IMG/VR virus record: IMGVR_UViG_3300042987_001471
Location: 1 to 21,485 of that record
Origin: a virus
Strand: one strand, 5' to 3'
Length of the DNA: 21,485 nucleotides
A program made the translations under genes and the position numbers. Below, piece by piece: positions 165-12,671 of this stretch; the first letter of the stretch is position 1, and the number at the start of each line of letters is the position of its first letter. The notes beneath the pieces were generated by a model. That model made no database searches. It worked only from the letters and a program-made list of their open reading frames with translations, and was not told the origin of the DNA.

Positions 165-195
165 AGTGGCCTCCTCGCGGTTGCGATGGGAGGGA

Positions 196-224: not shown

Positions 225-231
225 GCGAAAA

Positions 232-259
232 TGATCAGGTAAACTGAATTTTCTGATCA
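232..259 (-). terminator. Possible terminator of the repressor transcript
   Basis: TGATCAG (232-238) and CTGATCA (253-259) form a perfect 7-bp inverted repeat with a 14-base loop. Read on the minus strand, the right arm overlaps the repressor stop codon and the stem is followed by ATTTTCG, a short T tract. The stem is short and AT-rich, so termination would be weak. The same stretch also holds a degraded operator (233-249), so it could instead be a regulatory site. Confidence 0.4.
233..249 (-). promoter_or_regulatory. Possible weak third operator
   Basis: GATCAGGTAAACTGAAT agrees with GTTMAGYNNNRCTKAAC at 11 of 14 specified positions, with a near-perfect right half-site ACTGAA. It lies upstream of the leftward promoter and at the end of the repressor gene. 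It may be a low-affinity site for cooperative binding, or chance. Confidence 0.3.
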
Positions 260-604
260 GGCCGCTTGGGGTGAGTCGTCGTCGTCCGACGCGGGCGCGT
301 CAGTCGCCGCTAATATGAGGCGCAGCACCATCCCGCGCTGGCTCGCCGGCACCCGATGCCAATGCCGGATCAGCGCGCGCAATTCTGCATCATGATCAAT
401 CGGTTGAGCGTGAACGCCTAGAAGGGCGGCGGGATCACTGCGGGTTTGCGCCGCAATCGCCAGCAAATGCCCGTGCTTGGGCCGCGTGTCGCCCGCCTCC
501 CACTGCGCGACTGCGCTGGGGCTCACATTTAGAGCGCGGGCAAGCTGTCTCTGCGTCAACCCGGCGGCGGTTCGCACCGCTCTAATTCTGTCGTGCAATT
601 CCAT
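257..604 (-). CDS. Short HTH phage repressor (CI/C2 position)
   Basis: A 115-residue protein with an N-terminal HTH_3/XRE domain (about residues 5-58); the helix-turn-helix runs through LTQRQLARALNVSPSAVAQW, a classic lambda-repressor-family pattern. The C-terminus is charged and ends in an acidic DDDD run. An upstream in-frame ATG at 703 was rejected because it would place the coding region through the operator at 664-680 and across the Cro start; ATG at 602-604 gives the normal family start MELHDRIRAVR. It is divergent from the Cro-like gene and flanked by operators, so it is most likely the lysogeny repressor. It lacks the C-terminal S24 peptidase domain of lambda CI, so RecA-stimulated self-cleavage is not expected. 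No strong Shine-Dalgarno is visible before 604. Confidence 0.8.
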   Translation of the reverse strand: MELHDRIRAVRTAAGLTQRQLARALNVSPSAVAQWEAGDTRPKHGHLLAIAAQTRSDPAALLGVHAQPIDHDAELRALIRHWHRVPASQRGMVLRLILAATDAPASDDDDSPQAA

Positions 605-627
605 GGGATCAGTGTGCCTCTGGGGGA

Positions 628-644
628 GGCTAGCGACACTGAGC
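628..644. promoter_or_regulatory. Possible weak operator upstream of the repressor
   Basis: GGCTAGCGACACTGAGC matches the operator consensus at 10 of 14 specified positions, with a good right half (ACTGAGC). Its centre is 36 bases from the centre of the strong operator at 664-680. It lies between the divergent promoters and the repressor ATG, where a second, weaker site for autoregulation would be expected. Evidence is sequence similarity only. Confidence 0.3.
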
Positions 645-653
645 AAATAGGGC

Positions 654-681
654 TTGAACCCCTGTTCAGTTTTGCTTAACG
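654..681 (+). promoter_or_regulatory. Rightward early promoter (PR-like)
   Basis: A -35 box TTGAAC (654-659) and a -10 box TTAACG (676-681) are separated by 16 bases. The predicted start point (about 687-690) coincides with the ATG of the Cro-like gene at 690, implying a leaderless mRNA. The operator at 664-680 covers the spacer and -10, so a bound repressor would exclude RNA polymerase. Confidence 0.55.
664..680 (+). promoter_or_regulatory. Repressor/Cro operator OR
   Basis: GTTCAGTTTTGCTTAAC is a 17-bp imperfect dyad, the reverse-complement counterpart of the copy at 197-213. It lies in the repressor-Cro divergent region and overlaps the -10 of the rightward promoter. The recurrence of a 17-bp dyad at just these two promoters is the main evidence. 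Confidence 0.75.
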
Positions 682-689
682 TCGTCGGC

Positions 690-902
690 ATGACCAATCT
701 CACTGGTATGGCCCTCCTGCGCTCTCAGCGCGGCCTCCTGGCAAAAGTGGCGGACGGCTTGGGCATCACGCGCGGCGCGGTCGCCATGTGGCCGCGCATC
801 CCCGCCGAGCGAGTCCGCCGCGTTTCCGAAATCACAGGCATTCCTCGCCATGAACTGCGGCCCGACCTCTGGGACGCGCCAGCACGGGGCGACGCCGCGT
901 GA
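690..902 (+). CDS. Cro-like YdaS-family HTH regulator
   Basis: A 70-residue protein. An N-terminal LLAKVADGLGITRGAVAMW helix-turn-helix (about residues 16-34) is followed by IPAERVRRVSEITGIPRHEL (about 38-57), the signature of the YdaS/Cro-like family, in which the tail ends in HELRPD. It faces the repressor and is the first gene of the rightward operon, the position of cro. ATG 690 is preferred over the TTG at 654: the TTG would put the start inside the -35 box. No Shine-Dalgarno precedes 690, but the promoter predicts transcription starting at about the ATG itself, so translation is probably leaderless. It likely competes with the repressor for the same operators. Confidence 0.75.
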   Translation: MTNLTGMALLRSQRGLLAKVADGLGITRGAVAMWPRIPAERVRRVSEITGIPRHELRPDLWDAPARGDAA

Positions 903-1169
903 TCGCCTATCCCCATCCCCTTCGGGGGCTGTCCCGCGACGGACGCCAATCGTCGCCAGCGCGTTCCCATGCATTCGCGCGCTGCACCAGCCCAGACCGT
1001 CAACCGCGTGCGAATCGTGGCGGTCGGGCTGGCCGAATTTGCCGAGGCGGGGCCTCTCTCCCCTCTGCTCTCCCTGCCGGCCGGGGGCCTCGGTGATGGC
1101 CGGCACTTATAACAGGGCAACCGTGATGTGCGTGTGCGTGTCTTCATGCTTTGAAGATGGACCGCTCTG
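903..1169. other. Non-coding, hairpin-rich early leader/terminator region
   Basis: No convincing gene: the plus- and minus-strand ORFs here are GC-driven shadows rich in Arg, Pro and Ser. What is visible: a CCCC-TTCG-GGGG hairpin with a UUCG tetraloop at 917-928 just after the Cro stop; GAGGC-GGG-GCCTC at 1044-1056; CCGAGGC (1042-1048), which can alternatively pair with GCCTCGG (1087-1093); and TGCCGGCC (1075-1082) pairing with GGCCGGCA (1098-1105). None is followed by a T tract, so they are not classical intrinsic terminators. A TATAAC box at 1108-1113 could be a -10 for the next gene, but no -35 is evident. Attenuation or antitermination is possible but unproven. Confidence 0.5.
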
Positions 1170-1538
1170 ATGCCCAGCGCCACAGTCGCAAACCCGGATG
1201 TTGCCGGTGATATGCTTCACAATCACGTTCGGCGCGTCATTTCGCGGCTGCCGGTGCGCAACCGGGTGAAGTGGTTGGCGCGACTGGCCGGCGTCTCGTC
1301 ACGCACGGCGGAGGATTGGCTGTATCGCAATCGCCGGCCGAGTGCTGGCGCCGCGCTCGTGATCCTGTCGTCTGATCCTGCCGCACTGGCTGCCTTCCAA
1401 GCTGACATGACCGTTTTCGCCCAAAGCCGCCAAGCGGCCGATCGAGCGCGCAAGAGGTTGCATGATCTGGAAACAAGTTCTCGCGACCTTGGAGTGGCAC
1501 ATGGGGCTGATGCTGAGCCGCAGTGTGATCCGGGCTGA
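1170..1538 (+). CDS. HTH-containing early protein of unknown function
   Basis: A 122-residue protein. Residues about 33-55 (VKWLARLAGVSSRTAEDWLY) look like a helix-turn-helix that tolerates the conserved Gly-Val-Ser turn, followed by a helical stretch with many Ala, Gln and Arg. The last 20 or so residues are low-complexity. The start ATG at 1170 has only a weak purine stretch upstream; no better in-frame start exists before the HTH. It resembles small DNA-binding proteins of early phage operons, but I cannot name a family. It could be a second regulator such as a CII-like activator, although nothing specific in the sequence shows that. Confidence 0.6.
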   Translation: MPSATVANPDVAGDMLHNHVRRVISRLPVRNRVKWLARLAGVSSRTAEDWLYRNRRPSAGAALVILSSDPAALAAFQADMTVFAQSRQAADRARKRLHDLETSSRDLGVAHGADAEPQCDPG

Positions 1539-1608
1539 GGCGTGGTCTGACAGGTTGATCACGCGAGCGGCTGCTCGTGGGGTTCGGCCTTGGTTTCGGA
1601 GTTGGTGA
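1462..1608 (+). CDS. Possible 48-residue small basic protein
   Basis: This short ORF begins MIWKQVLATLEWHM and ends RGVRPWFRSW; it is rich in Trp and Arg and mildly hydrophobic at its start. An AAGAGG ribosome-binding motif lies about five bases upstream of the ATG at 1462. The ORF overlaps the end of the preceding gene in another frame, and its TGA (1606-1608) is immediately followed by the ATG of the GcrA-like gene at 1609, as expected for a coupled gene filling an otherwise empty 70-base gap. It is short and unrecognised, so it may be a chance ORF or serve only to couple translation. Confidence 0.35.
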   Translation: MIWKQVLATLEWHMGLMLSRSVIRAEAWSDRLITRAAARGVRPWFRSW

Positions 1609-2598
1609 ATGGCACACGTTGATTGGACGCCAGAGCTTGTCGAGAAACTCCGCGAATTGTGGCTAGCCGGCGTGTCCCCCATCGAGATGTCCCGCCAACT
1701 GGGCGTGTCAAAAGACGCGCTGATCGGCAAGGCGCATCGGATTGACCTTCCCATGCGGCCGAACGCGATCATTCGCGCATCGCCACAGGCCAAAGCACGC
1801 AACGCTGAGATTCTCAAACTGCTCGCGCGCGGCTTGTGCCAGAAAGACGTGGCCGACGTCCTGCGCATCTCAAAGGGCGTCGTGCACAACGTCCGCAAGC
1901 GCGCGCTGGCAGGCGGGTGGGACCCGGACGAGCATCGGGAGCCGCAGGAATCCACGCTGCCGCCGCTTGCGAGCCTTGAGCCGGTGCAACCCGCGCCACC
2001 GATCCGGGCGGCTGTTCACAATATTTCACGGGCCAAGCTGCGCAAGTTCAAGGCGTCCATACAGCTGCGCACACTCGAATGCTGGCCACGCGATCGGCTG
2101 CAGATGATGTGGGAGTTGCACTCACGCGGCACGATGCCGGTTGTCATGGCGAAACTGCTGACCAAGCAATTCCCCGACCTGCCGGCGCTTACCGGATACG
2201 AGATCAGCTATTTCATCAACCTGCGCAAAATCCCGCGCGGGACGCCGGTTCCTGATCCCATGGTGCGGCCGGATTGCTGGCTGTATCGCGATCTGCCCGA
2301 GATTATCGACGACGACGAGCCGGCCGAGAAGCCGGCGCCGGAACGCGCGCCGTTTGAGATCAACACGCTCCCGTGGTGCGAGATTCGCGATTGGGCCAAA
2401 CGCGCGCGGCTGCGACAGACGGACGATCAGTCAGACAAGGATTTCCTGCGCGTCGTCAACGGCGAACGGCTGCGCCACGGCTTGCCTGTGTTTCGGCCGG
2501 CGCGGGAGGACAAGCGGTGGATGCCGGGGTGGAAGCATTGGGCATATATCGACAGTTGGGCATCAAAGCGCCGCGCTGGCGACGCAGAGGCGCCGTAA
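1609..2598 (+). CDS. GcrA-headed multi-HTH regulator
   Basis: A 329-residue protein. Residues 4-50 (WTPELVEKLRELWLAG, then IGKAHRIDLPMR) match the N-terminal DNA-binding domain of GcrA, the alphaproteobacterial cell-cycle regulator that acts at CcrM-methylated GANTC sites. A second HTH (about 64-100) resembles resolvase or sigma-type helices, and residues 160-212 look like another GcrA-like unit ending INLRKIPRGTPVP. A linker rich in Pro and acidic residues (225-250) leads to a basic C-terminus. The sigma-70-binding cysteine region of GcrA is not recognisable. GGAG lies seven bases before the ATG. It sits at the head of the replication genes, so it may activate or reprogram transcription; methylation dependence is not shown by the sequence. 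Confidence 0.7.
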   Translation: MAHVDWTPELVEKLRELWLAGVSPIEMSRQLGVSKDALIGKAHRIDLPMRPNAIIRASPQAKARNAEILKLLARGLCQKDVADVLRISKGVVHNVRKRALAGGWDPDEHREPQESTLPPLASLEPVQPAPPIRAAVHNISRAKLRKFKASIQLRTLECWPRDRLQMMWELHSRGTMPVVMAKLLTKQFPDLPALTGYEISYFINLRKIPRGTPVPDPMVRPDCWLYRDLPEIIDDDEPAEKPAPERAPFEINTLPWCEIRDWAKRARLRQTDDQSDKDFLRVVNGERLRHGLPVFRPAREDKRWMPGWKHWAYIDSWASKRRAGDAEAP

Positions 2599-2604
2599 CC
2601 ACAG

Positions 2605-3978
2605 ATGCAACTGCGCCCCTACCAGGAAGCCGCAATAGCCGCCATCCGGGCCGCCTACAAGGCCGGCAAACGGGCGCCGCTGCTGTGCGCTCCGACCGGG
2701 GCAGGCAAGTCAGCCATGGTCAAATACATGCTCGGCCAGACGCGCAAGCGGGTGCTCTACCTCTGCCACCGCGCCGAACTGGCCGAAATGATCCACGCCG
2801 ATTTGGCGGCGGCCGGACTGCCCCACGGCATGATCACGGCCCGCAGCAAGACAACCGACGACGGCATGAACCTGCACGTCGGCATGGTGCAGACCGTCGC
2901 GAGGCGGTTGGACAAACTGCCGGTGTTCGATTGGGTGATCTCGGACGAGGCACATCTTGCCATGTCCGACACCTGGCGCGGGATACTGCATCACTACTCG
3001 GCAGCCTGGCACCTGGGCATGTCCGCCACGCCGTGCCGCTTGGACGGGCGCGGGTTGGGCGACGTGTATGACGAGATCGTTTACGGCCCCAGCGTTCGGG
3101 AACTGACGGACGGCGGCTACCTCACTCGGTATCGCGCGTTTGCCCCTGCTGTCGCGCTGGATGGCATCAAGCGGTCCGGCGGTGACTTCCAGATGGGCGA
3201 CGCGGCCCGCGTTCTCGACACCAGCACGATCACGGGCGACGCGATCCGCGAGTATGGCCGGCGCATGCCGGGCAAGCGGGCCATCGTGTTCTGTTGCACG
3301 CGCGAACACGCCGATCATGTTGCTGGGCAGTTCCGCATGGGCGGGATTGAGGCGGTGAACGTCGACGGGTCCATGTCGGCGTCGGAACGCGCGGCTCGGA
3401 TCTGTGATTTTCGCGACGGGCGTATCCCCGTGCTGACGAATGTGGACCTGCTGACAACCGGGTTCGACCTGCCGGCGATCGAGGGCGCGATTTTCCTGCG
3501 TCCGACGCAGTCGCTCGCGCTGTATCTGCAAATGGTGGGGCGCGTGTTGCGCGTCGCACCCGGCAAGGACTGCGCGCTCCTTCTCGATCACGTCGGCAAC
3601 GTGCTGCGGCACGGGTTGCCCGACGCGGACCGAGAATGGACGCTGGACGGCAAGCCTGCGCGGGCTGCGGCGCTGGCCGTTCGGCAGTGTTCGGAGTGTT
3701 TTGCCGCGTTCCCGCCTGCGCCTGTCTGCCCTGAATGCGGGTTTCAGTTCCCCGAGGCCGAGGGTCGCAAGCCCAAGAAAGAGGTCGAAGGCGAATTAGC
3801 AGAGGTCCAGCAGACCGACGCCGAACGCTATCAGGAATGGCTGGCGACCGGGCCGTTGCGTGAGGTTATGCGCGGCCGGCGAACCGTAGACCAAATCGAG
3901 GAGGTCCGGCGCGCCCGCGGGTATCATCATCGATGGACCATGCACCAGATGCAATTCCGCGGGCCACGCGCAGCATGA
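2605..3978 (+). CDS. SF2 DEAH-box helicase with C-terminal zinc ribbon
   Basis: A 457-residue superfamily 2 helicase. In order: Q-like LRPYQ (3-7), Walker A APTGAGKS (29-36), DEAH (114-117), SAT (140-142), and motif VI QMVGRVLR (309-316). This is followed by a four-cysteine zinc ribbon (C362, C365, C375, C378) and a helical tail. The layout is that of phage DEAD/DEAH helicases related to the UvsW/RadD type, which unwind branched or duplex DNA using ATP. Only six bases separate it from the GcrA-like gene. A VRR-NUC nuclease and a DnaB helicase follow, pointing to a role in replication, recombination or fork processing. Its stop codon lies in the first copy of a 20-bp tandem duplication (3961-4000). 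Confidence 0.9.
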   Translation: MQLRPYQEAAIAAIRAAYKAGKRAPLLCAPTGAGKSAMVKYMLGQTRKRVLYLCHRAELAEMIHADLAAAGLPHGMITARSKTTDDGMNLHVGMVQTVARRLDKLPVFDWVISDEAHLAMSDTWRGILHHYSAAWHLGMSATPCRLDGRGLGDVYDEIVYGPSVRELTDGGYLTRYRAFAPAVALDGIKRSGGDFQMGDAARVLDTSTITGDAIREYGRRMPGKRAIVFCCTREHADHVAGQFRMGGIEAVNVDGSMSASERAARICDFRDGRIPVLTNVDLLTTGFDLPAIEGAIFLRPTQSLALYLQMVGRVLRVAPGKDCALLLDHVGNVLRHGLPDADREWTLDGKPARAAALAVRQCSECFAAFPPAPVCPECGFQFPEAEGRKPKKEVEGELAEVQQTDAERYQEWLATGPLREVMRGRRTVDQIEEVRRARGYHHRWTMHQMQFRGPRAA

Positions 3979-4020
3979 GCGGGCCACGCGCAGCATGAGC
4001 GGGCCAGGCGCAGCGCTAGA
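3961..4020 (+). repeat. 20-bp tandem duplication at a gene junction
   Basis: The 20 bases at 3961-3980 (GGGCCACGCGCAGCATGAGC) are repeated exactly at 3981-4000, and a third, degenerate copy follows at 4001-4020. The first copy holds the helicase stop as an ATGA overlap (ATG 3975, TGA 3976-3978), and the second copy holds the nuclease ATG at 3995. Because 20 is not a multiple of three, the ATG at 3975 now reads only seven codons before a stop. Confidence 0.95.
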
Positions 4021-4396
4021 AGCCGCGATCCGGCTTGCACTCGGCGCCGATCCCGACACGCGCATTTTTCGCAACAACGTCGGGAAGGGCTGGCAAGGCC
4101 GGCTTGAACGCCGCACGCCGTTTTCGGTCACGTTGTCCAGCCCGCGTCTGATCGGGTTTGGATTGGCCGAGGGATCGGGCGACTTCATTGCCGTCCGTCG
4201 CGTTGTCGTCACACCCGAAATGGTGGGCCAGACGATCGGCGTATTCGGGTCCATCGAGGTCAAGTCTGGCAGCGGGCGCACCGATCCGGCTCAGCGGGCT
4301 TGGCTGCGGACCATGCGCGCGTTCGGTGCGCGGGCTGGGGTTGCGCGGTCGGTGGATGACGCACGGGCTATTTTGGATGGGGAGTTGGTCGGGTGA
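3995..4396 (+). CDS. VRR-NUC family nuclease
   Basis: A 133-residue protein of the size of stand-alone phage VRR-NUC domains, a branch of the PD-(D/E)XK nucleases. Visible active-site features are E9 in the first helix, GSGD (60-63) supplying the Asp, EVK (88-90) supplying the Glu-Lys pair, and a Gln (Q100) in the following helix. Family members cut branched or flapped DNA, and stand-alone phage versions commonly sit beside an SF2 helicase, as here. The start is in the second copy of a tandem duplication; no Shine-Dalgarno is seen, so translation probably depends on coupling to the helicase, whose stop is 16 bases upstream. Its stop overlaps the GTG of the next gene. Confidence 0.85.
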   Translation: MSGPGAALEAAIRLALGADPDTRIFRNNVGKGWQGRLERRTPFSVTLSSPRLIGFGLAEGSGDFIAVRRVVVTPEMVGQTIGVFGSIEVKSGSGRTDPAQRAWLRTMRAFGARAGVARSVDDARAILDGELVG

Positions 4397-5835
4397 ACGT
4401 CGTTGCACCGTTCGGCATAACCCCGCGCCAGCCCCCCACGAACATCCAGGCGGAACAGGCGCTCCTCGGCGCGATCCTGGCCAACAACCGCGCATATGAC
4501 CGCGTCGCCGGATTCCTGGCGCCGGACCATTTCGCAGACCCGATCAACGGGCGGATTTTCGGCGCGATCCGAACCCATATCAGCGCCGGCCGCGTCGTCG
4601 ACGGCGTCACGCTCAAATCCGAGTTTGAGAACGCCGGCATATTGGATCAGGTCGGCGGCACGGCTTATCTCGCGCAACTGCTGACCGCGATGGTCGGGAT
4701 CATCAACGCGGCGGAATACGGCCGCGCGATCCACGACGCATGGAAACGCCGCGTCCTGATCGAGCTAGGCGAGCGCATCGTCAACGCGGGGTTCGGGCCT
4801 GCCGACGCTGAATCACTCGACGCCATCGCATCCGCCGCGACTGCCGACGATATCGTTGCGGCCTCCGTAGCTGCCATGGAAGGCGCGTTCGGCGTCGATC
4901 AGGACCGCAAGGCCACGACGCTCGACAGCGCCATGGACGCCGCCATACAGGCCGCAGAGCAGGCTCGCACGCGAGAAGGGCCTGCCGGGCTGGAAACGGG
5001 CTTCCCGTCGCTTGACGCGGTTCTAGGCGGCCTAGAGGACGGGACTATGAACGTCGTCGCGGGCCGGCCTGGTATGGGCAAGTCCTCGCTGGTCTGGCAG
5101 ATCGCACTACACGCTGCGCGCGCCGGGATCGGCGTTGTCGCGTTCTCGCTCGAAATGTCCGCCATGCAGCTAGGCCGTCGCGCCCTGTCCGTGGCGTCTG
5201 GCGTGCCGCTCAAGGCGCTGCGCAGCGGCGACATGACAACCCGTCACGGCGAGGCGCTGCTACAAGCCCGGCGCGAAATGGCTGGCTTGCCGCTGTCAAT
5301 CGAGGACGCGTCGGGGCTGACCGTGGCGCAGATTGATCTACGCATCAGGGCAGCGCATCGCCGGCATGGCGTCGGACTGATTGTGATCGATCACCTGCAT
5401 ATCGTGCGGCCAGACGACGCCGACGAGCGGAACGGGTCAACCTGGGCAGTCGGCAAGATTTCGCGCGGCATGAAGACCCTTGCCAAGCGCCACAACTGCC
5501 CCGTCATCGTCGCCGCGCAGCTTAACCGTGGCGTAGAGGGACGCGACGACAAGCGTCCGACGCTGGCGGATCTGAGGCAGGCCGGGGACATAGAGCAGGA
5601 CGCGGACAGCGTTTCATTCGTCTATCGCGAAGCCTACTACCTGCGCGATCCCGCCCGCCGAGAGGGCGAGTCCGAACAGAAATTCGCGGAACGCTGCGAG
5701 CAATCTGCCGAGCGTTTGCGTGAGGTCGCGGACAAGGCCGAGGTCATCATTGCGAAACTTCGCGACGGTGAACCCGGCTCTGTCAGTCTGCAATGGCGTG
5801 GCGAAACCACTAGCTTTCATGAGGTCGGACGATGA
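4393..5835 (+). CDS. dnaB: Replicative DNA helicase, DnaB type
   Basis: A 480-residue DnaB-family hexameric helicase of full length. The N-terminal DnaB domain (about 15-125, beginning NIQAEQALLGAIL) is followed by the RecA-like core: Walker A GRPGMGKS (224-231), FSLEMS (251-256), Walker B LIVIDHLH (329-336), AAQLNRG (374-380), and the DnaB signature RPTLADLRQAGDIEQDAD (388-405). It unwinds DNA ahead of the phage replication fork. The GTG start at 4393 overlaps the previous stop as GTGA and has GGGGAG upstream; an ATG would lie too far inside. A phage-encoded DnaB implies that the phage does not need to recruit the host helicase. No intein is present. Confidence 0.95.
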   Translation: MNVVAPFGITPRQPPTNIQAEQALLGAILANNRAYDRVAGFLAPDHFADPINGRIFGAIRTHISAGRVVDGVTLKSEFENAGILDQVGGTAYLAQLLTAMVGIINAAEYGRAIHDAWKRRVLIELGERIVNAGFGPADAESLDAIASAATADDIVAASVAAMEGAFGVDQDRKATTLDSAMDAAIQAAEQARTREGPAGLETGFPSLDAVLGGLEDGTMNVVAGRPGMGKSSLVWQIALHAARAGIGVVAFSLEMSAMQLGRRALSVASGVPLKALRSGDMTTRHGEALLQARREMAGLPLSIEDASGLTVAQIDLRIRAAHRRHGVGLIVIDHLHIVRPDDADERNGSTWAVGKISRGMKTLAKRHNCPVIVAAQLNRGVEGRDDKRPTLADLRQAGDIEQDADSVSFVYREAYYLRDPARREGESEQKFAERCEQSAERLREVADKAEVIIAKLRDGEPGSVSLQWRGETTSFHEVGR

Positions 5836-6767
5836 ACGAGTTGCCTGCGCCCATGAGCGCACCAGAGTGCGATTTGCGTGATTTCCAGTTCATGCCGCTG
5901 CTGATCACGCGATTGAAGCGGTCAAAAGCGTGGCTGAAATGCAAGCGCCGGCCGGAACTGGCGTTTTACATGCTCAACCTGTGGACTGCCTCATGGCACG
6001 AAACCCCGGCCGGCAGCCTTGAGGACGACGACGACGTGCTGGCCGACCTGGCCATGTGCGACCCGGCGAAATGGGCCAAGATCAAGTCCGACGCACTGCA
6101 CGGGTGGGTCAAGTGCTCGGATGGCCGGCTCTATCACAGGGTTATCGCAGAGCAAGCCACAGAAGCGTGGCTGCACCGGACAGGCTATCGCGAGCGTCTA
6201 TCAAAGGCCCGTGAGGCGCGCGAAGCCAAGCGCAATGGGCGCGCCATAGGGACTGTCATAGGTTCTATGATAGAGACTATCACAGAGCCTATCACAGACG
6301 GTGTGACAGCCCATATCACATCGACTGTCACAGAGCAGAGGATAGAACAAAGCACAGTTCTTAAGGGACAGGGACAGGGACAGGGACAAGTACAAGAACC
6401 CCCTGTAGTCCCCCAGCCGGCCGAGCGGCCATGGGCGCACCGGGATTGGCTGGCACCGTGGCACCCCCATGCCGAGCGATGGGAGGTTGACCCGGCGCGG
6501 CCGACCATGGGATTAAGGCCGGTGGTGGGTGGTTGGTTCGCAGACGTGATCTGGGAAAAGGCGAAGGAGGCCGGCGATTTGCCCGAAAATCGTTACGACA
6601 CCGTTGAAGGCTTGCGTCCCATGGCTGACTGGCTGAAATCGGGGCGCGACCCAGACGAAATCTACGCGGGAATTCAAAAGGTTGCGCGGCGATCGGGGTA
6701 TTCGCCGCCGGACTCGCTGCGGTATTTCGACCGGGCGGTTCAGGACGCGAAGAGGGCCGTGGCATGA
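5832..6767 (+). CDS. DUF1376 protein, candidate replication organiser
   Basis: A 311-residue protein. Residues 15-110 carry the DUF1376 pattern (PELAFYMLNLWTASWHETPAGSL, then CSDGRLYHRVIAEQ), common in phage genes next to dnaB. Residues 115-137 are basic. Residues 140-175 are four-residue repeats of the form xx(V/I)T, followed by four GQ pairs (179-186). The C-terminal region (about 200-311) is probably a separate domain with several Trp residues. The ATG overlaps the dnaB stop as ATGA, with GAGG seven bases upstream. The repeat-coding stretch (6251-6389) is much AT-richer than its surroundings and holds iteron-like DNA motifs. The layout of N-terminal domain, iterons in the middle and C-terminal domain recalls lambda O, but this is inference. 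Confidence 0.75.
   Translation: MNELPAPMSAPECDLRDFQFMPLLITRLKRSKAWLKCKRRPELAFYMLNLWTASWHETPAGSLEDDDDVLADLAMCDPAKWAKIKSDALHGWVKCSDGRLYHRVIAEQATEAWLHRTGYRERLSKAREAREAKRNGRAIGTVIGSMIETITEPITDGVTAHITSTVTEQRIEQSTVLKGQGQGQGQVQEPPVVPQPAERPWAHRDWLAPWHPHAERWEVDPARPTMGLRPVVGGWFADVIWEKAKEAGDLPENRYDTVEGLRPMADWLKSGRDPDEIYAGIQKVARRSGYSPPDSLRYFDRAVQDAKRAVA
6251..6346 (+). repeat. Iteron-like cluster, candidate replication origin
   Basis: The 8-mer CTRTCAYA occurs exactly at 6253-6260, 6277-6284, 6289-6296 and 6325-6332, and inverted at 6266-6273 and 6302-6309; 6313-6320 differs by one base. All fall in a 12-bp register. Another exact copy is at 6131-6138. By hand count 6252-6365 is about 45% GC, far below the flanking coding sequence. 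Lambda-type phages carry iterons and an AT-rich zone inside the initiator gene next to dnaB-related functions. Origin function is inferred. Confidence 0.55.
6366..6389 (+). repeat. GGACAG hexamer tandem repeat
   Basis: Three exact GGACAG units are followed by GGACAA, encoding Gly-Gln four times. It directly follows the iteron-like cluster. It may be a flexible linker, part of the same origin structure, or a slippage-prone tract. Confidence 0.9.
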
Positions 6768-6961
6768 AGCGGGTCAAGCTTGAGGATTTTCGATTTTCCA
6801 AGCAAATTTCTACGACTTCGCCGCATTGGCCTGCGGTGATGGAGTGGAAAAAGCGCGGCTTGCTGACCGTCACCCCGCAGACAGCGACGCTTGCCGCCGT
6901 GGAACTTTCCAGTGATGGGCTTGAGGTTGCGAACCGGGAGCGGACGCAGTGGCGGGGGTGA
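6764..6961 (+). CDS. Small protein of unknown function
   Basis: A 65-residue, basic protein beginning MKRVKLEDFRFSKQIS, with no recognised domain, signal peptide or membrane segment. Its ATG overlaps the stop of the DUF1376 gene (ATGA) and has GAGGG about seven bases upstream, so it is almost certainly translated as the last gene of the early operon. An 86-base GC-rich gap with nothing I can name follows it. Confidence 0.6.
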   Translation: MKRVKLEDFRFSKQISTTSPHWPAVMEWKKRGLLTVTPQTATLAAVELSSDGLEVANRERTQWRG

Positions 6962-7047
6962 GCGGGGGTGTGTCGCTTGGTGGGAGTGCCGCCGCCGAGC
7001 CGTGAAACGCCGCGCGCGCGGGTCGGTTTGATAGACGGAGGCGGGGC

Positions 7048-7263
7048 ATGAGCGCTGGGAAAACTACAACGCCGCATCTGGCGGAAATGGACGCCATCAC
7101 CGAGTGCAAGCGGCAGATTGAGCCGCTATCCCCGGCCGCGCGTCAGCGGGTCATCTCGTGGCTGCAAGCGTGGGCGCATGATGAACAGGCGGAAAGTTCG
7201 AGGCTTGGCGGGTATGCCATCGTCCCGTCTGGCTATCACGGGGCAAACACGATCCCTGTCTAG
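7048..7263 (+). CDS. Small phage protein of unknown function
   Basis: A 71-residue protein. The central helix IEPLSPAARQRVISWLQAWA (about residues 28-47) resembles a motif seen in many short phage early proteins of the form L-P-ARQRVL-WL. The start is well supported by GGAGG eight bases before the ATG at 7048. The C-terminus is Gly/Tyr-rich. No enzyme or membrane feature is visible. It opens the cluster of small genes between the replication and packaging modules. Confidence 0.65.
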   Translation: MSAGKTTTPHLAEMDAITECKRQIEPLSPAARQRVISWLQAWAHDEQAESSRLGGYAIVPSGYHGANTIPV

Positions 7264-7334
7264 CCCGCACTTCAATCGGCTCTGACGCCAGGCGCCGCGC
7301 CCGAAAAATAGCCGGCCTCGCGCATTTTCTCCGT

Positions 7335-7369
7335 TGACGCCCTGGCGCACTTGTGGGACAAGGGCGTCA
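7335..7369 (+). promoter_or_regulatory. 9-bp inverted repeat in leader of the 7389 gene
   Basis: TGACGCCCT (7335-7343) and AGGGCGTCA (7361-7369) are perfect inverted repeats with a 17-base loop. CTTGT-GGG-ACAAG (7350-7362) can form an alternative inner hairpin that shares two bases with the right arm. The structure ends five bases before the GAGGAG ribosome site at 7375. A TTGACG hexamer at 7334-7339 could be a -35 box but has no good -10. It may be a protein-binding dyad or an mRNA hairpin affecting ribosome access. Confidence 0.45.
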
Positions 7370-7388
7370 GACGAGAGGAGACGCGCAG

Positions 7389-7589
7389 ATGACAGACGCT
7401 CTGGTCTTGGCCCGCAAAGCGGTCAACGCATGCCAATTCGGGTCCCCGGAATGGGAGGACGCCATGGGCCGGGTCCGGGCCATGGTTGCGGCGCAGCCGG
7501 TCAAAGCGTCGCTTGATTGCGTCCTGGCGCGGACTAGCCAGAATACATACCGCGCCATTGCCAAGCGCCGCCAAGGCGCAAAAGGCTGA
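7389..7589 (+). CDS. Small protein of unknown function
   Basis: A 66-residue protein beginning MTDALVLARKAVN and ending in a basic tail (RAIAKRRQGAKG). The start at 7389 has a strong GAGGAG site about eight bases upstream; the in-frame start at 7353 was rejected because it lies within the inverted-repeat leader and lacks a ribosome site. A 125-base gap containing that inverted repeat lies before it, and the next gene begins two bases after its stop. No domain recognised. Confidence 0.65.
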   Translation: MTDALVLARKAVNACQFGSPEWEDAMGRVRAMVAAQPVKASLDCVLARTSQNTYRAIAKRRQGAKG

Positions 7590-7591
7590 CC

Positions 7592-7897
7592 ATGCCCCTC
7601 TATTCCTACTGCACCCAGGGCGGGCGAGTGGATATCCGCCCGCACCGGACGCGCGAGGAGGCGTCGCGGTATCTGCTGGATACGTATGGGCTGCGCGCTG
7701 ACGGCAGGGACGTTTTTGGGGCCTCGTGGTATCCGCCTGCGACTGGCGCGACCTGGCACGCCTCGCTACATCCCAATGAGACTGAGCTAATCCGCGCGTG
7801 CCTGGACTTGTATCCAAGCGCGATGCCGGATTCCCTGCGCGCCGCTGCGGACGCGATCGAGCTAGCCAACGTGAGGGAGGCAGTCGGAGATGAGTAG
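7592..7897 (+). CDS. Protein of unknown function
   Basis: A 101-residue protein beginning MPLYSYCTQGGRVDIRPHRTREEA, with aromatic residues spread along its length (SWYPPATGATWHASLHP at about 45-61) and a helical C-terminus. AAAGG lies about six bases upstream of the ATG, and the previous stop is only two bases away. The composition suggests a small folded cytoplasmic protein; no motif I recognise. Confidence 0.65.
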   Translation: MPLYSYCTQGGRVDIRPHRTREEASRYLLDTYGLRADGRDVFGASWYPPATGATWHASLHPNETELIRACLDLYPSAMPDSLRAAADAIELANVREAVGDE

Positions 7898-8105
7898 AAT
7901 CCGATACGTGATAGAGGCGGATACCGCCGAGGACATGCGTCAGGAAGTCTTGTCGCTGCTCGCCCGCGTAATTGACGCCACAAAATCGACTGCGCATCTG
8001 TCGTCGGAAGGCCGCAAGGAATGCCGGGCGCGGGTATCGGCGCTTGAAGGCGTGCGGTCCGTGCTGGCGGCTGCTGACTTGGCACCGAAAGTGGATCGCT
8101 CATGA
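7890..8105 (+). CDS. Small helical protein of unknown function
   Basis: A 71-residue protein, mostly predicted helix (AEDMRQEVLSLLARVIDAT, then a second helix through GRKECRARVSALEGVRSVLAA). It overlaps the preceding gene by eight bases and has a GGGAGG ribosome site eight bases before its ATG. Its own stop overlaps the ATG of the following gene. Function unknown. Confidence 0.65.
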   Translation: MSRIRYVIEADTAEDMRQEVLSLLARVIDATKSTAHLSSEGRKECRARVSALEGVRSVLAAADLAPKVDRS

Positions 8106-8476
8106 GCGCTGAAACCTACGCTTATTGGCAGTCCATGGCTGAGCATCACGAAGCCCGCATGAACGCCGTGATCGCCCTGCCATCGTGGCGCCGCTGGCGA
8201 TCGCTGTGCGACGAACGCATGCACCATTCGACGTGGCAGATGGTCGCGTCGGACAAGGCGGAGGGACTGAAACATGGAGCCGATTTGGACGTTGACGGAG
8301 CCGGGGACGCTGAGCCTGAGCGGCACGCGGTTCGCGGTCGTGATGCGAGAGCCGGGCGACTACCGCGTGTGGTTCGACGGGAAGCAAGCGGCTTGCAGCG
8401 GTTCCTACAGCGTGCTTTCGAGTGCAAAGCAGGGCGTGCTCGATCTCGTCGCGGAAACACTCGAAATGGGGCTTGA
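8102..8476 (+). CDS. Unknown protein with out-of-frame-looking C-terminal extension
   Basis: A 124-residue ORF whose ATG overlaps the previous stop (ATGA). Residues 1-59 (MSAETYAYWQSMAEHHEARM, then WRRWRSLCDERMHHSTWQM) look like a genuine small protein. Residues 60-124 are Arg/Ala/Gly-rich and of the type produced by reading GC-rich coding DNA in the wrong frame, and they overlap the whole of the better-supported 8274-8483 gene. A TGA lies in the next frame at 8268-8270, just before the ATG at 8274. A single-base indel would therefore make this an ordinary 55-60-residue protein coupled to the next gene. It may be a sequencing or assembly error, a real frameshift, or a true extension. Confidence 0.5.
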   Translation: MSAETYAYWQSMAEHHEARMNAVIALPSWRRWRSLCDERMHHSTWQMVASDKAEGLKHGADLDVDGAGDAEPERHAVRGRDARAGRLPRVVRREASGLQRFLQRAFECKAGRARSRRGNTRNGA

Positions 8477-8483
8477 GCCGTGA
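8274..8483 (+). CDS. Small protein of unknown function
   Basis: A 69-residue protein beginning MEPIWTLTEPGTLSLSGTRF, which reads as a beta-rich fold (TRFAVVMREPGDYRVWFDGK) followed by a C-terminal helix. A strong GGAGGG site lies eight bases upstream of the ATG, making it more credible than the overlapping frame of the 8102 ORF. Its stop overlaps the GTG of the next gene as GTGA. No family recognised. Confidence 0.65.
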   Translation: MEPIWTLTEPGTLSLSGTRFAVVMREPGDYRVWFDGKQAACSGSYSVLSSAKQGVLDLVAETLEMGLEP

Positions 8484-8629
8484 CCTTCCTAGCAACCGCC
8501 TGCATGGTCGCCGGCATCGCCCTGTCGATCATTGCCGCCGCGCTGTTCTACGGCCTTGCGGGCGGGATCGGCATGACCGCTGTTTGGCTGCTTCTCTATG
8601 CCGTGTGTAACAGTGGCGCGACCAGCTAG
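8480..8629 (+). CDS. 49-residue membrane protein, possible holin
   Basis: The GTG at 8480 overlaps the previous stop (GTGA). The protein has two hydrophobic stretches, about residues 3-24 (LATACMVAGIALSIIAAALF) and 27-43 (AGGIGMTAVWLLLYAVC), separated by only a short glycine turn, with almost no charged residues. This is a small integral membrane protein, probably two helices. Small membrane proteins upstream of terminase genes are often holins or spanin partners, but there is no endolysin in the window, and the chain is shorter and less charged than typical class II holins. Superinfection exclusion or another membrane role is equally possible. Confidence 0.5.
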   Translation: MTFLATACMVAGIALSIIAAALFYGLAGGIGMTAVWLLLYAVCNSGATS

Positions 8630-8828
8630 ATCGCCTGTCCCGCTAGCCCGCGTCCTGGCGCGCATTGGTTGGTCCGTCTCGCATGCCGCGCGTCTTGCCG
8701 GGGTGTCGCGTCGGACCATGACGCGCTGGGCGATGGGGGACATTCGCGCGCCGTATGACGTGGCCCGCTGGCTGGTCGCGGTGGCGCGTTCGATCGAGCG
8801 GATACCGAAACCGCCTGCGCGCGATTAG
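8598..8828 (+). CDS. HTH protein upstream of terminase
   Basis: A 76-residue protein. Residues about 17-48 (ARVLARIGWSVSHAARLAGV, then SRRTMTRWAMGD) form a clear helix-turn-helix resembling those of small phage regulators, followed by a helix and a Pro-rich basic tail. The start is uncertain: ATG 8598 overlaps the membrane-protein gene by 32 bases and lacks a good ribosome site; GTG 8613 is an alternative. It lies immediately before the late promoter and the small terminase gene, so it could regulate late transcription or assist DNA recognition for packaging, but neither is shown by the sequence. Confidence 0.6.
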   Translation: MPCVTVARPARSPVPLARVLARIGWSVSHAARLAGVSRRTMTRWAMGDIRAPYDVARWLVAVARSIERIPKPPARD

Positions 8829-8830
8829 GT

Positions 8831-8859
8831 TTGACACTGCCGCGCGCGTTTGGGCAAAT
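8831..8859 (+). promoter_or_regulatory. Probable late promoter for the packaging/head operon
   Basis: A perfect consensus -35, TTGACA (8831-8836), is followed after 17 bases by GCAAAT (8854-8859), a weak -10; AAATAT at 8856-8861 with a 19-base spacer is an alternative. It starts two bases after the HTH gene stop. The predicted start point (about 8866-8868) coincides with the ATG of the small terminase gene, again implying a leaderless message, as at the Cro promoter. The weak -10 suggests it may need an activator. Confidence 0.5.
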
Positions 8860-8867
8860 ATGCGCGC

Positions 8868-9287
8868 ATGGTAGAGCGGCTTCCGAACGGACGGTTCCCG
8901 AAAGGCAAGGGCGCAGGCTGGGGTGGCTCGGCGAAGGGCGCGTCGAAATCCCGCCCGCACGTTCTCGGCCCTGGGCCTGGCCGTCCGACGTTTAAGGGGG
9001 CGGCTGATGTCCTGCTGCGGGAGGCGTCCCGCGAGCTACAGGCCGAGGCGGTCAAGGATACGATCTTCCGCATCGCCCTGGAATCCGACGACGACAGCGT
9101 GCGGGTAAACGCCGGCAAGGCGTTCCTGGACCGCGTCGAGGGCACGCCGGTTGCCCGTCAGATGACAATCGCGGTCGATGCCACGGACCGGGCTGCAATC
9201 GACCGGCCGCCGGCTGAAACGCGCGAGGAATGGCTAAAGCGAAAGGCGGCGGAACGTGTGGTCACCACAGCCCGGGCCGCAGGCTGA
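8868..9287 (+). CDS. terS: Terminase small subunit
   Basis: A 139-residue protein. The N-terminus is Gly/Lys/Pro-rich and probably flexible and DNA-contacting (LPNGRFPKGKGAGWGG, then GPGPGRPTF). It is followed by a helical region (about 40-90) ending FLDRVEGTPVARQ, a phrase typical of small terminase subunits, and a charged C-terminal helix. It recognises the phage DNA and starts packaging with the large subunit. The upstream TTG at 8850 was rejected because it lies inside the promoter; ATG 8868 has no Shine-Dalgarno but coincides with the predicted transcription start. It overlaps the large subunit by 32 bases. Family assignment rests on context and the C-terminal phrase. Confidence 0.7.
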   Translation: MVERLPNGRFPKGKGAGWGGSAKGASKSRPHVLGPGPGRPTFKGAADVLLREASRELQAEAVKDTIFRIALESDDDSVRVNAGKAFLDRVEGTPVARQMTIAVDATDRAAIDRPPAETREEWLKRKAAERVVTTARAAG

Positions 9288-10647
9288 CGCGATCGCGGCG
9301 GACTGGTGCCCCGAACTTTTCTTCGGTGGCGCGCGCGGTGGCGGCAAGTCGGATTTCCTTCTAGGCGATTTCCTGCAAGACGTGCCGCGCTACGGGCCGG
9401 CATGGCGTGGCATCCTGTTCCGCCGGACGTATGAGCCGGAGCTGAAGGAAATTCTACTCCGGTCGCAGGAGCTATACCCGCCGTCCGGTGCGACCTGGCA
9501 CGAGAAGGACAAGACGTGGAAATGGCCGAACGGCGCGTTCCTCCGGCTGCAATACCTAGAGCGGGAACAGGACGCATCGCGCTACCAGGGGCAGCAATAC
9601 ACGTGGATCGGTTGGGACGAGTTGACGCAGTGGCCTAGCGACGCGGCATACCGGATGATGTTCGCCTGCCTGCGATCGGCTGCGGGTGTGGCGACGAAGC
9701 GGGTGCGAGGCGCCGGCAACCCGGGCGGTCCGGGGCACCAGTGGGTTAAGGCTCGGTTTATTGATCCCGCGCCGCGTGGGTTTGAACTGATCAACGATGG
9801 CCCATGGGAGCGGCTGTTCATTCCGAGCCGCGTGCAGGACAACGCTATCCTGCTCGCATCAGATCCGGGCTATGCGGCACGGCTGCGCGGCGCGGGATCG
9901 GCGGAGTTGGTGCGAGCGTGGCTTGAGGGTGACTGGTCCGTCGTGTCCGGGGCCTACTTCCCGGAGTGGTCGCCGGACAAGCACGTGATCGAGCCGTTTG
10001 AGATTCCGCCGGATTGGCCCCGGTTCCGATCGTTTGACTGGGGATCGGCGCGGCCGTTCAGCGTCGGGTGGTTTGCCGTGTCGGACGGGTCTGACCATCG
10101 TTTCCCACGCGGCGCGCTGGTCCGGTATCGCGAATGGTATGGCATGAAACCCGGATCGCCTAACGTCGGGCTTAAACTGACGGCCGAGGCTGTCGCGCAG
10201 GGCATACGGGACCGCGAGACGGAGCGGGTGCAACTCGGCGTCGCTGATCCAGCCATTTTCGCCGAGGATGGCGGACCGTCGATTGCGCAGCGTATGGCCG
10301 GACACGGCGTGTTGTGGCGCAGGGCGGATAACAAGCGGGTCCCGGGCGCCGGAGCGATGGGCGGCTGGGACGCTGTCAGGTCGCGGCTTGTTGGCGAGGA
10401 TGGCAAGCCGATGTTATTCGTGTTTACAACCTGCCGCGACCTTGTTAGGACGCTCCCTGCACTACAGCACGACGCGCTGCGTCCCGAGGACGTGGATACG
10501 GACGGTGAAGACCATGCGGCGGACGAGTTGAGATACGCCTGCATGTCGAGACCGTGGGTTCCGGCGGCGCGCAAGGCGGCTGTGGTGCAGATCAGCGACT
10601 ACGGTCGCAACAGGCAAAGGGCAGCCCCGGATTGGCGGACGGCGTAG
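9256..10647 (+). CDS. terL: Terminase large subunit (ATPase-nuclease)
   Basis: A 463-residue packaging motor of the Terminase_6/P22-like group. It starts directly with the ATPase: Walker A GGARGGGKS (24-32), Walker B YTWIGWDE (115-122, with D121 and catalytic E122), and motif III GAGNPGG (152-158). The RNase-H-like nuclease follows, with the acidic triad D261 (FDWGS), D331 (VADPAIF) and D423 (AADELRY). It pumps DNA into the prohead and cuts the concatemer. GTG 9256 is used because nothing shorter leaves Walker A in its usual place near residue 25; the gene overlaps the small subunit by 32 bases. All key residues are present. Confidence 0.95.
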   Translation: MWSPQPGPQADAIAADWCPELFFGGARGGGKSDFLLGDFLQDVPRYGPAWRGILFRRTYEPELKEILLRSQELYPPSGATWHEKDKTWKWPNGAFLRLQYLEREQDASRYQGQQYTWIGWDELTQWPSDAAYRMMFACLRSAAGVATKRVRGAGNPGGPGHQWVKARFIDPAPRGFELINDGPWERLFIPSRVQDNAILLASDPGYAARLRGAGSAELVRAWLEGDWSVVSGAYFPEWSPDKHVIEPFEIPPDWPRFRSFDWGSARPFSVGWFAVSDGSDHRFPRGALVRYREWYGMKPGSPNVGLKLTAEAVAQGIRDRETERVQLGVADPAIFAEDGGPSIAQRMAGHGVLWRRADNKRVPGAGAMGGWDAVRSRLVGEDGKPMLFVFTTCRDLVRTLPALQHDALRPEDVDTDGEDHAADELRYACMSRPWVPAARKAAVVQISDYGRNRQRAAPDWRTA

Positions 10648-10658
10648 CGACTGATGAC

Positions 10659-12611
10659 ATGCTCCCAACGCTTCGCGAGTGGTTTCGCGAGGCAGAGGAC
10701 ACCAGCGCGGACGCCAGACAGGAAAGCGAGCGGGCCAGGGACTACCTTGATGGGCGTCAGCTAACCAGCGAACAGGTCGCGACGCTGGCAGAGCGCGGGC
10801 AGCCGGCGGTGGTCGATAACCGCATTCGCCCCAAGGTGAGCTACATCCTCGGCGTGGAAAAGCGGACCCGGACTGATCCCCGGGCATATCCGCGGACGCC
10901 AGATCACGAGCAGGACGCGAACGGCGCGACGGACGCGCTGCGGTATGCCTGCGACGCGGCGCATTTCGAGGAGACCAGCCCGCGCGTGTTGGAGGATATG
11001 CTGGTCGAGGGCACGGGCGGCGTGGATGTCGTCTACAACGAAGCCACGGGCGATATCGACGTCATACAATACCCGTGGGATCGGCTGTTTTGGGACCCGA
11101 GGTCGCGCAATCTCGATTTCTCCGACGCCAAGTATCTCGGCGGCGTGGCGTGGCAGGACGAAGACGAAATTCTGGCCAAGTGGCCCGGGTCAGAGGATGC
11201 GATTGCCGCCGCGCACGTGCTGGAGGCGTCCGACGCGACGACGTATGGCGATCGTCCTAGCGCCACGTGGGGCGATAAGAACCGCAAGCGGGTGCGGGTC
11301 ATCCAATTGCATTGGGTGGACGGTGAGGGTTGGTGGTCCGCGACGTTTACGGGAGGCGGGTTCCTGACGCCGCCGGCACCGTCGCCGTATGTGGACGAGA
11401 ACGGCGCTCCGTCATGCTCGATGGTGCTGCAATCGGCGTATATTGACCGCGAGAACACCCGCTACGGGATCGTGCGGGACATGTTTGATCTGCAGGATGA
11501 GGTCAACAAGCGCCGCTCCAAGGCGTTGCACCTCATGACCGTGCGCACGGTGATTGCCGAACAGGGCGCGGTGCAGGACGTAGACGAAGCCCGGGCGCAG
11601 GTGGCCAAGCCTGACGGTTTCGTAGAAGTCGCGCCGGGGATGCGGTTCGAGATCGGCGACAACGTGAACCTGGCGCAAGGGCACGTCCTGCTGCTGAACG
11701 AGGCGAAGAGCGCGCTAGAGGGGCAGGGACCTAACGCGTTCCTGATGGGCAAGCAGTCGCAGGGCGCGTCCGGTCGGGCGATCATGGCCAGCCAACAGGG
11801 TGGCGTGACTGAGATCGAGGGCACCGTTCTAGAGCGGTTTAAGACCTGGAAACGCCGCGTCTACACGGCAATCTGGCTGCGTATCCGGCAGTTTTGGACC
11901 GCCGAGAAGTGGGTGCGGATCACCGACGACGAGCGCAACGCCAAGTTTGTCGGGCTTAACCAGCCGCTAACGCTGTCGGATGCGTTGGAGGATATGCCGC
12001 CTGAGCAGCAACAGGCGATGGTGGCGCAGCTTGGCGTCATGCCGGGCGATCCGCGTCTGTCGCAGCCGGTGGTAAACGAGGATGGTTCGCCGGTTTTGCG
12101 GAACGACGTGTCGCGCGTGATGGTGGACGTTGTCATTGACGAAGCGCCGGACGTGGTGACGCTACAGCAAGAGCAGTTTGCGCTACTGGCCGATCTGGCC
12201 AAGATCCCCGGCCTGATTCCGCCCGACGCGCTCATTGAGGCGTCGGCGCTGAGAAACAAGGAGACGTTGCTCAAGCGCATGCGCCCGCCGACAGGGCCGA
12301 ATGGTGAGCCGGTTCCGCCCCCGCCGCCGCCCGAGGTGGTGAAGATGCAAGCGGAATTGGAAATGAAGCAGCAGGCAGCGCAGATGGACGCACAGATGGA
12401 AGCGCAGCGGTTGCAGGCGCAGATGGCGGCGGACCAGGCGCGTCTACAGGCAGAGATACAGGCCATGCAGGCTCGTGCGGCGGCTGAGATTGAGATCGCA
12501 CGCCAGCGGGCCGAGGCAGACATACAGATCGCCAGAGCGAAAGCCTTGGCGGATGCAGAGCTACGGGCGCAGCAGGCTATGGCGGCGTCTGAGACGGCTA
12601 CGGTTCAGTAG
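10659..12611 (+). CDS. P22-type portal protein
   Basis: A 650-residue portal, close to the 725 residues of P22 gp1. Residues 53-66 (DNRIRPKVSYILGV) and the WDP/FWDPRSR segment near 145 match P22-type portals. After the Pro-rich run near residue 550 comes a roughly 80-residue coiled coil of Gln/Ala/Met/Glu, corresponding to the long C-terminal barrel helix of P22-like portals. It forms the dodecameric DNA gate at one vertex and docks the terminase and the gp4-like adaptor. ATG 10659 is preferred over the in-frame GTG at 10554: the longer form would add 35 Gly-rich residues that lie within the terL coding frame. No strong ribosome site is visible; TTG 10632 with AAAGGG upstream is an alternative. 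Confidence 0.85.
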   Translation: MLPTLREWFREAEDTSADARQESERARDYLDGRQLTSEQVATLAERGQPAVVDNRIRPKVSYILGVEKRTRTDPRAYPRTPDHEQDANGATDALRYACDAAHFEETSPRVLEDMLVEGTGGVDVVYNEATGDIDVIQYPWDRLFWDPRSRNLDFSDAKYLGGVAWQDEDEILAKWPGSEDAIAAAHVLEASDATTYGDRPSATWGDKNRKRVRVIQLHWVDGEGWWSATFTGGGFLTPPAPSPYVDENGAPSCSMVLQSAYIDRENTRYGIVRDMFDLQDEVNKRRSKALHLMTVRTVIAEQGAVQDVDEARAQVAKPDGFVEVAPGMRFEIGDNVNLAQGHVLLLNEAKSALEGQGPNAFLMGKQSQGASGRAIMASQQGGVTEIEGTVLERFKTWKRRVYTAIWLRIRQFWTAEKWVRITDDERNAKFVGLNQPLTLSDALEDMPPEQQQAMVAQLGVMPGDPRLSQPVVNEDGSPVLRNDVSRVMVDVVIDEAPDVVTLQQEQFALLADLAKIPGLIPPDALIEASALRNKETLLKRMRPPTGPNGEPVPPPPPPEVVKMQAELEMKQQAAQMDAQMEAQRLQAQMAADQARLQAEIQAMQARAAAEIEIARQRAEADIQIARAKALADAELRAQQAMAASETATVQ

Positions 12612-12671
12612 CACCGCCGCCGGGTTCCGGGCGCAAGCGTCGCCGGCTTACGGGCGTTAGTGGGGCTAGCA

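Follow-up and report, generated by a model that had tools for sequence, protein, structure and literature searches.

Does a phage begin its replication within the gene of its own initiator when that gene belongs to a family without a known function? The question is raised by a patch of short repeats inside a DUF1376 gene in the window, which is the whole stretch of DNA analysed here, a virus record of 21,485 bases. Genes of the DUF1376/YdaU kind occur widely among the phages and prophages of Pseudomonadota and make up a Pfam family with no assigned function. Those parts of the DUF1376 literature that were available give neither a function nor an origin, and print outside open access is not excluded. 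On the evidence set out below we consider it very likely that the patch is the replication origin of the phage and the DUF1376 protein an initiator resembling lambda O, although binding and origin activity are both inferred and no experimental data exist.

Relatives were collected in three scans that yielded 207 DUF1376 loci, 47 and 80 from viral contigs (the second viral scan keeping 80 of 580 relatives) and 80 from bacterial genome contigs (80 of 93 kept). Removal of near copies via shared 12-mers left 138 non-redundant genes from phages and prophages, belonging to Pseudomonadota wherever the tree names a phylum. Tests that require the hexamer tract described below use 108 of these 138 genes, and tests on C-terminal domains 104. 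Alignment A2 comprises 61 proteins, and alignment A3 comprises 109 of 257 flanking ORFs (131 downstream, 126 upstream). Automatic labelling of iterons left 16 of the 138 genes unassigned, 28 under an earlier scheme.

The DUF1376 gene and its neighbours

The DUF1376 gene was called as an ORF of 311 aa at 5832-6767 on the plus strand, which carries all the stranded features described here; we propose that it encodes the replication initiator and contains the putative origin. Its product matches the PF07120 (DUF1376) profile with E 1.5e-15 and 57.7 bits against a gathering score of 30.1, and finds in PHROGs phrog_22470, 'replication protein' (E 1.2e-26), where it is grouped with replication and primosomal proteins. 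DUF1376 was the sole domain found at E up to 0.001 and 0.01, with no PF04492 (Phage_rep_O) match, and the Pfam scan matched neither the RepA_N nor the bZIP profile. The part coding for the domain, placed at 5889-6158 by the profile match, appears weakly winged-helix-like in a predicted model with a pLDDT of 91.5. Structure comparison with this model (VIA) listed plasmid Rep initiators among its rows, but the best Z was 4.5 (4pql), with 5kbj_C at 4.3, below the level at which a relative is marked. Foldseek returned no row at E <= 0.001 and no significant PDB match, and a search of a viral structure library returned DUF1376 proteins, a lambda GpO-like row appearing only at E 0.18.

Overlapping the start of the DUF1376 gene is a gene for a DnaB-type replicative helicase (4393-5835; PF03796 E 2.5e-75, PF00772 E 1.9e-26), which confirms the claim of the first-pass annotation that the phage carries its own DnaB at this place. 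In named phages the DUF1376 gene stands at the position of lambda's O: phi297 has CI, Cro, short ORFs, a CII-like gene, a short ORF, DUF1376, DnaB and RusA in this order, and D14L has DUF1376, a DnaC/DnaI loader and the DnaB helicase. Only 28 of the 138 loci had a DnaB relative in their flanks, with one fusion in addition, and 18 of the 109 scanned flanking ORFs encode DnaB. In L037 (2618-4843) DUF1376, linker, tract and DnaB are fused in one frame, and L036 has the same fusion but runs off its contig. One ORF of alignment A3, flanking a DUF1376 gene, encodes a Thoeris anti-defence Tad2-like domain (E 1.4e-22). Elsewhere in the window, a 117-nt unit occurs 2.8 times at 19125-19450 within a large ORF (16475-20638), and a 20-bp tandem repeat (2.8 copies, 97% alike; 3959-4014) spans the end of a DEAD-type helicase gene and the start of a VRR-NUC gene. 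The protein encoded at 1609-2598 has a GcrA-like N-terminus, and in Synechococcus phage Ssp-JY42 a putative GcrA gene likewise lies near the DUF1376 gene.

An array of pseudo-palindromic iterons

The repeated motif of the window is a 9-bp pseudo-palindrome, CTRT-S-AYAG, with C or G as the middle base. Seven units lie exactly 12 bp apart at 6253-6333. Five are exact, namely iteron 1, CTGTCATAG (6253-6261), iteron 2, CTATGATAG (6265-6273), iterons 3 and 4, both CTATCACAG (6277-6285 and 6289-6297), and iteron 7, CTGTCACAG (6325-6333); iteron 5, GTGTGACAG (6301-6309), has one mismatch, and a degenerate iteron 6 read from the sequence, ATATCACAT (6313-6321), keeps the register with two. Half units, read in the same way, stand in register before the array (CATAG, 6245-6249) and after it (GATAG, 6341-6345, and CACAG, 6353-6357). 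The first-pass annotation had described CTRTCAYA copies in both orientations and in a 12-bp register. The copies and their register stand, with seven exact CTRTCAYA in the window (six in 6253-6332 and one at 6131) against 0.93 expected, a number that none of 100 shuffles reached; the two orientations do not, being only apparent because the middle base of a single pseudo-palindrome is either C or G. The further copy reported about 120 bases upstream is indeed an exact 9-mer (CTATCACAG, 6131-6139), but it is out of register (122 = 10 x 12 + 2) and overlaps the codons of a conserved Tyr-His motif, so that its role is doubtful and it is possibly a coincidence.

The number of copies is not accounted for by the encoded protein. 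Synonymous rewriting with the phage's own codon usage gave a mean of 0.025 exact copies in 20,000 rewrites, none of which reached five, and 5,000 reorderings of the synonymous codons within the array gave the observed copies in no case; chance is thus excluded even given the protein. The patch also bears out the low GC content noted earlier: the 120 nt from 6245 are, at 45%, the lowest-GC 120 nt of the whole window, and 6241-6360 has 48%, whereas the gene has 61% and the window 64%. Its threonine codons are six ACA and three ACT, with no ACC or ACG, whereas ACG and ACC together make up 82% in the other genes of the phage, where the array's two codons are rare. Cumulative GC skew, which had been suggested as a check, remained ambiguous, since the best change point falls at 6100 within 1-13000, where 2 of 500 block permutations reach it, and at 2900 when the window is taken as a whole, which shows no change of sign.

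Conservation of the repeats at the DNA level

Most of the 138 relatives carry palindromic arrays at the same place in the gene, with a sequence that differs by family; the types include TGTCCCnnGGGACA, TTCCnnnGGAA, TGTCACGCGTGACA, GATCGnnnnnCGATC, CTGTSACAG, to which the window belongs, ATGCCACGGCAT, GTCTAC half-sites and others. Judged by a dyad score, the arrays beat codon shuffles in 81 of the 138 genes and synonymous shuffles in 60, and repeated 10-mers did so in 78 and 54, respectively; gene by gene, over half of the 138 fail the synonymous-shuffle tests. In a positional control of the dyad score, another window of the locus outscored the linker in 56 of 138 cases and equalled it in 31, and the linker topped every other window in only 51, with a coarse statistic that misses several classes.

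Among genes with at least three dyads, copies occupy more than one reading frame in 47 of 54 and all three frames in 17 of 54, which argues that DNA, not protein, is what is conserved. The same oriented half-site is spread over two or three frames in 38 of 40 genes of the TGTCCC type, 11 of 13 for TTCCnnnGGAA, 10 of 13 for GTCACG, 12 of 13 for GATCGC and 5 of 8 for the ATGCC type, but in only 1 of 5 for CTGTSACAG; the copies of the window's own class share one frame, and frame independence therefore rests on the other classes. Third codon positions, compared between pairs 60-99.5% alike with at least three dyads, differed at 9 of 109 sites in dyad arms against 114 of 572 in the rest of the linker (p 0.003). 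This comparison of relatives at the DNA level, proposed beforehand as a check, thus finds the dyads kept in any frame while the encoded peptide changes, the opposite of the outcome that would have counted against an origin, i.e. a protein repeat retained without its DNA motifs.

A predicted basic helix that varies with the iteron type

Between the domain and the array, the gene encodes at 6162-6251 a basic helix module which we propose as the DNA-reading element, on the grounds of an AlphaFold2 helix and of co-variation with the iterons. AlphaFold2 predicts the last DUF1376 helix to be one continuous helix over residues 103-147 (block mean pLDDT 97 for 111-130 and 86 for 131-140), and the linker that follows the module is predicted to be disordered. 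A net charge of +4 or more is found for the module in 102 of 138 relatives, as compared with 11% of fragments drawn at random from these proteins, and the stretch after the Tyr-His motif goes with the iteron type even across different DUF1376 clades.

The association was quantified by taking for each gene its nearest neighbour by the 32-residue module, among pairs with DUF1376 domains less than 70% identical, and ranking the 6-mer similarity of their iteron regions. Neighbours by module reached a mean percentile of 0.903 (median 0.959, n=108), as compared with 0.571 for neighbours by DUF1376 domain (n=108) and 0.478 by C-terminal domain (n=104), and shared the iteron class label in 77 cases as opposed to 25 and 12. 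With the synonymous expectation from the encoded protein removed, the values were 0.876, 0.561 and 0.503 in the same order. The partial Mantel correlation of iterons with module given domain was 0.48 (0 of 200 permutations as high), and that with domain given module 0.056 (6 of 200 as high). Prediction from the module held at 0.813 with neighbours less than 60% identical and fell to 0.649 below 50%. Iteron class as a property of the DUF1376 domain itself was considered and rejected: the labels do cluster on the domain tree (46 changes against a shuffled mean of 72.2, with 0 of 200 shuffles as low), yet the module explains them far better. Since module and iterons adjoin on the DNA, joint inheritance contributes to the co-variation, but the changes of reading frame argue that it is not the whole cause. 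Recognition of the iterons by the basic helix is likely, though inferred from co-variation and a predicted model without binding data.

The pattern mostly holds in named phages from outside the sample: the iterons of Magia (TGTCCC), phi297 (TGTCAC/GTGACA) and Ostro (GATCG type) agree with their modules. In BgManors32 the module resembles class D, but the frame is short and stops ahead of a tract; Solano presents a further iteron type, GCGTTTC/GAAACGC; and Achromobacter phage CF418P1 and Shewanella phage QDWS combine TGTCCCACGGGACA iterons with a module of another kind and with another hexamer tract, GGAACC. In these last two, distant DUF1376 genes (L215 and L216), the GGAACC tract replaces GGGACA and is then followed by an A-rich stretch.

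Hexamer tract, A-rich step and hairpin

The tandem GGACAG tract noticed after the array in the first pass is present as four copies of GGGACA at 6365-6388, which fit a G3N3 quadruplex pattern. It is followed by a short A-rich step, AGTACAAGAA (6389-6398), with A or T at 7 of 10 positions, a candidate unwinding site whose melting is inferred. The earlier placement of an AT-rich zone beside the iterons holds in so far as the step exists, but the strongest A+T-rich step of the family lies after the GGGACA tract. The hexamer is enriched family-wide, its density in the 600 nt after DUF1376 being 5.26/kb against 0.16/kb in the flanks, about 32-fold, and 115 of 138 genes have at least two GGGA[C/G]A. 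A tract by rule was found in 108 of the 138 genes, starting in the three frames in 86, 13 and 9 of them, so that here too the DNA is what is kept. Just behind the tract, A+T makes up 69% of the first 5 nt and 68% of the 5 nt after them, as opposed to a gene mean of 37%, and a stretch of at least 60% A+T over 12 nt occurs in 74 of 108 genes as compared with 3% of random windows.

The quadruplex pattern occurs in the tract of 65 of 108 genes on the gene's strand and of none on the opposite strand. As a universal role of the tract, quadruplex formation was nevertheless rejected, with 34 of 108 genes having just two or three G-runs and with other hexamers in CF418P1, QDWS and Rac. Within 70 nt after the tract, a hairpin with a stem of 7 bp or more and a loop of 4 nt is found in 31 of 108 genes, at 4.13/kb against 0.107/kb elsewhere (about 39-fold), with the loop about 23 nt after the tract and mostly beginning with T (TGAC 7, TAAC 6, TAAA 3, TATC 3). 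The window itself lacks this 3' hairpin, its best stem being 4.

Proposed mechanism and alternative explanations

In the mechanism that we propose, the DUF1376 protein, probably as dimers, would bind the pseudo-palindromic iterons through its basic helix, which is predicted, binding and dimerisation being inferred. The array with its 12-bp spacing could then form a nucleoprotein complex that strains the adjacent G-rich tract and A-rich step; these elements are conserved, and their melting is our inference. The C-terminal domain would recruit the helicase, which in this phage may be its own DnaB encoded just upstream; in relatives the place is taken by genes for DnaC/IstB loaders or lambda P, or by a DnaT-type C-terminal domain or a DnaB fused to the protein, all of them observed, whereas the contact is inferred. 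The linker peptide would largely be a by-product of the DNA elements. For the family as a whole, we incline with more reserve to the view that DUF1376 proteins constitute a large unnamed class of initiators, in which a short exchangeable basic helix, encoded immediately upstream of its iterons, is a self-contained specificity cassette that passes from one initiator to another even where their N- and C-terminal domains differ. The origins of this class would follow a fixed plan in which cognate palindromic iterons are succeeded by a G-rich tract (quadruplex-capable in 65/108), then by an A-rich step for unwinding and, in roughly one gene in three, by a hairpin whose tetraloop mostly starts with T.

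Palindromic sites with cognate specificity would look identical if they were operators through which the DUF1376 protein or another phage regulator controls the replication operon, replication itself starting elsewhere, and the lambda origin is itself dependent on transcription according to the available part of PMC5043065. We regard this as improbable, given that the sites sit in the middle of the gene, that the hexamer tract and then the A+T-rich step follow them in fixed order, and that the C-terminal domains and partners are replication proteins. Still less credit can be given to selection on the (V/I)T repeat as a protein linker with the DNA repeat as its consequence, even though the CTGTSACAG class keeps one frame and relatives likewise encode (V/I)T repeats. 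This protein-repeat reading was rejected on synonymous rewriting and on reading-frame use, no rewrite in 20,000 having restored the array and other classes running in several frames; in addition, the linker is predicted to be disordered and its third positions are constrained. The same findings uphold the earlier suggestion that the xx(V/I)T peptide is a by-product of the DNA repeat.

Arrays resembling iterons also act elsewhere as parS or pac sites, and the patch might accordingly be a site of partition, packaging or recombination instead of an origin. The large terminase gene, however, starts at 9256, about 3 kb from the patch, no partition gene was recognised among the ten window proteins scanned, and the array of relatives is located within the replication gene and is of the type that goes with that gene's module, which leaves this explanation very unlikely. 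A replication origin served by the DUF1376 protein is the reading we retain, and with it the evidence assigns to DUF1376 genes an initiator role and to each of their carriers a likely place of the origin. It also suggests a readable code between a short helix and a DNA site, and the pairing of helix and iterons may explain the compatibility of co-resident prophages.

Comparison with known systems

The DUF1376 proteins include YdaU from the Rac prophage of E. coli. Over its last 120 residues it shares 46% identity with the C-terminal part of Gifsy-1 O, a protein with Phage_rep_O (PF04492) as its N-terminus. In two E. coli strains a near-identical YdaU-type N-terminus and module, accompanied by similar iterons (the first altered in L220), precede a C-terminus of the DnaT type, and the gene after this version is annotated as replication protein P and matches the lambda P family in L219. 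The C-terminal domain shared with Gifsy-1 O and the DnaT swap indicate that DUF1376 stands where the DNA-binding domain of lambda O stands. Like the window gene, ydaU has exact palindromic sites after the domain, TGTTCAAACA, TGTTCAAACA and TGTTTGAACA within 66 bp, i.e. three exact TGTTYRAACA, followed by an A-rich hexamer-like tract, and it adjoins a replication gene, that of a DnaC-like ATPase; the iteron and tract sequences differ from those of the window. None of 20,000 synonymous rewrites of ydaU reached three exact copies, but this exact-match threshold was chosen after a looser test, allowing two mismatches, had not been significant (748 of 3,000 reached it). The gene is annotated as frameshifted in two E. 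coli strains (L221 and L223), where the C-run after the tract varies in length, and the available part of a list of heat-evolved strains includes a ydaU frameshift at 178/285 (PMC10044804). The Rac prophage has an active origin, oriJ, whose position within Rac is not placed in what is accessible of PMC3945230. The DUF1376 evidence turns oriJ into a concrete candidate for mapping.

The lambda-like arrangement invoked in the first-pass annotation is supported by gene position, partner genes, the A+T-rich step and domain swaps of the lambda O type. In lambda, iterons and an A+T-rich region lie within the O gene, and O dimers bind the inverted-repeat iterons, as far as the accessible text of PMC5043065 and PMC7466680 goes. 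With O and its origin in lambda, Stx phages and Gifsy-1, the DUF1376 genes share, within the limits of these partial sources, the in-gene iterons, for which binding by the DUF1376 protein is inferred, the A+T-rich region and the gene position, as well as the C-terminal domain common to YdaU and Gifsy-1 O. The A+T-rich region of the lambda type is matched by a step of 69% at its peak, and 7 of 10 in the window, that is shorter than the 40 bp of lambda given there. Unlike lambda O, the N-terminal domain is DUF1376 and not Phage_rep_O, the dyads belong to many sequence families with an exchangeable basic helix tracking the iteron type, and a G-rich hexamer tract lies between iterons and A+T-rich step.

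The RepA_N initiators provide a second parallel. In pSK41 Rep, the accessible portion of PMC5703833 places the Rep boxes centrally in the rep gene, with an encoded linker that is dispensable, an NTD that binds and a DnaD-like CTD. Repeat boxes inside a known or proposed initiator gene are common to both, and the DUF1376 domain resembles the RepA_N NTDs only weakly in structure (Z 3.8-4.5, under the level for relatives); yet RepA_N systems are Firmicutes plasmids, the window protein has no RepA_N Pfam match, and that portion describes neither an exchangeable helix nor a hexamer tract for pSK41 Rep. With bZIP proteins the likeness is only one of working, a basic helix with a pseudo-palindrome around one central base, and the module differs in continuing the last DUF1376 helix and in lacking a leucine zipper. 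The sites of bZIP proteins are pseudo-palindromes with one central base, in an AP-1-like geometry. In-gene iteron origins being known from lambda and pSK41, the kind of system is already familiar; what is new, as far as literature searches show, are the initiator family, its exchangeable module and the plan of tract and hairpin.
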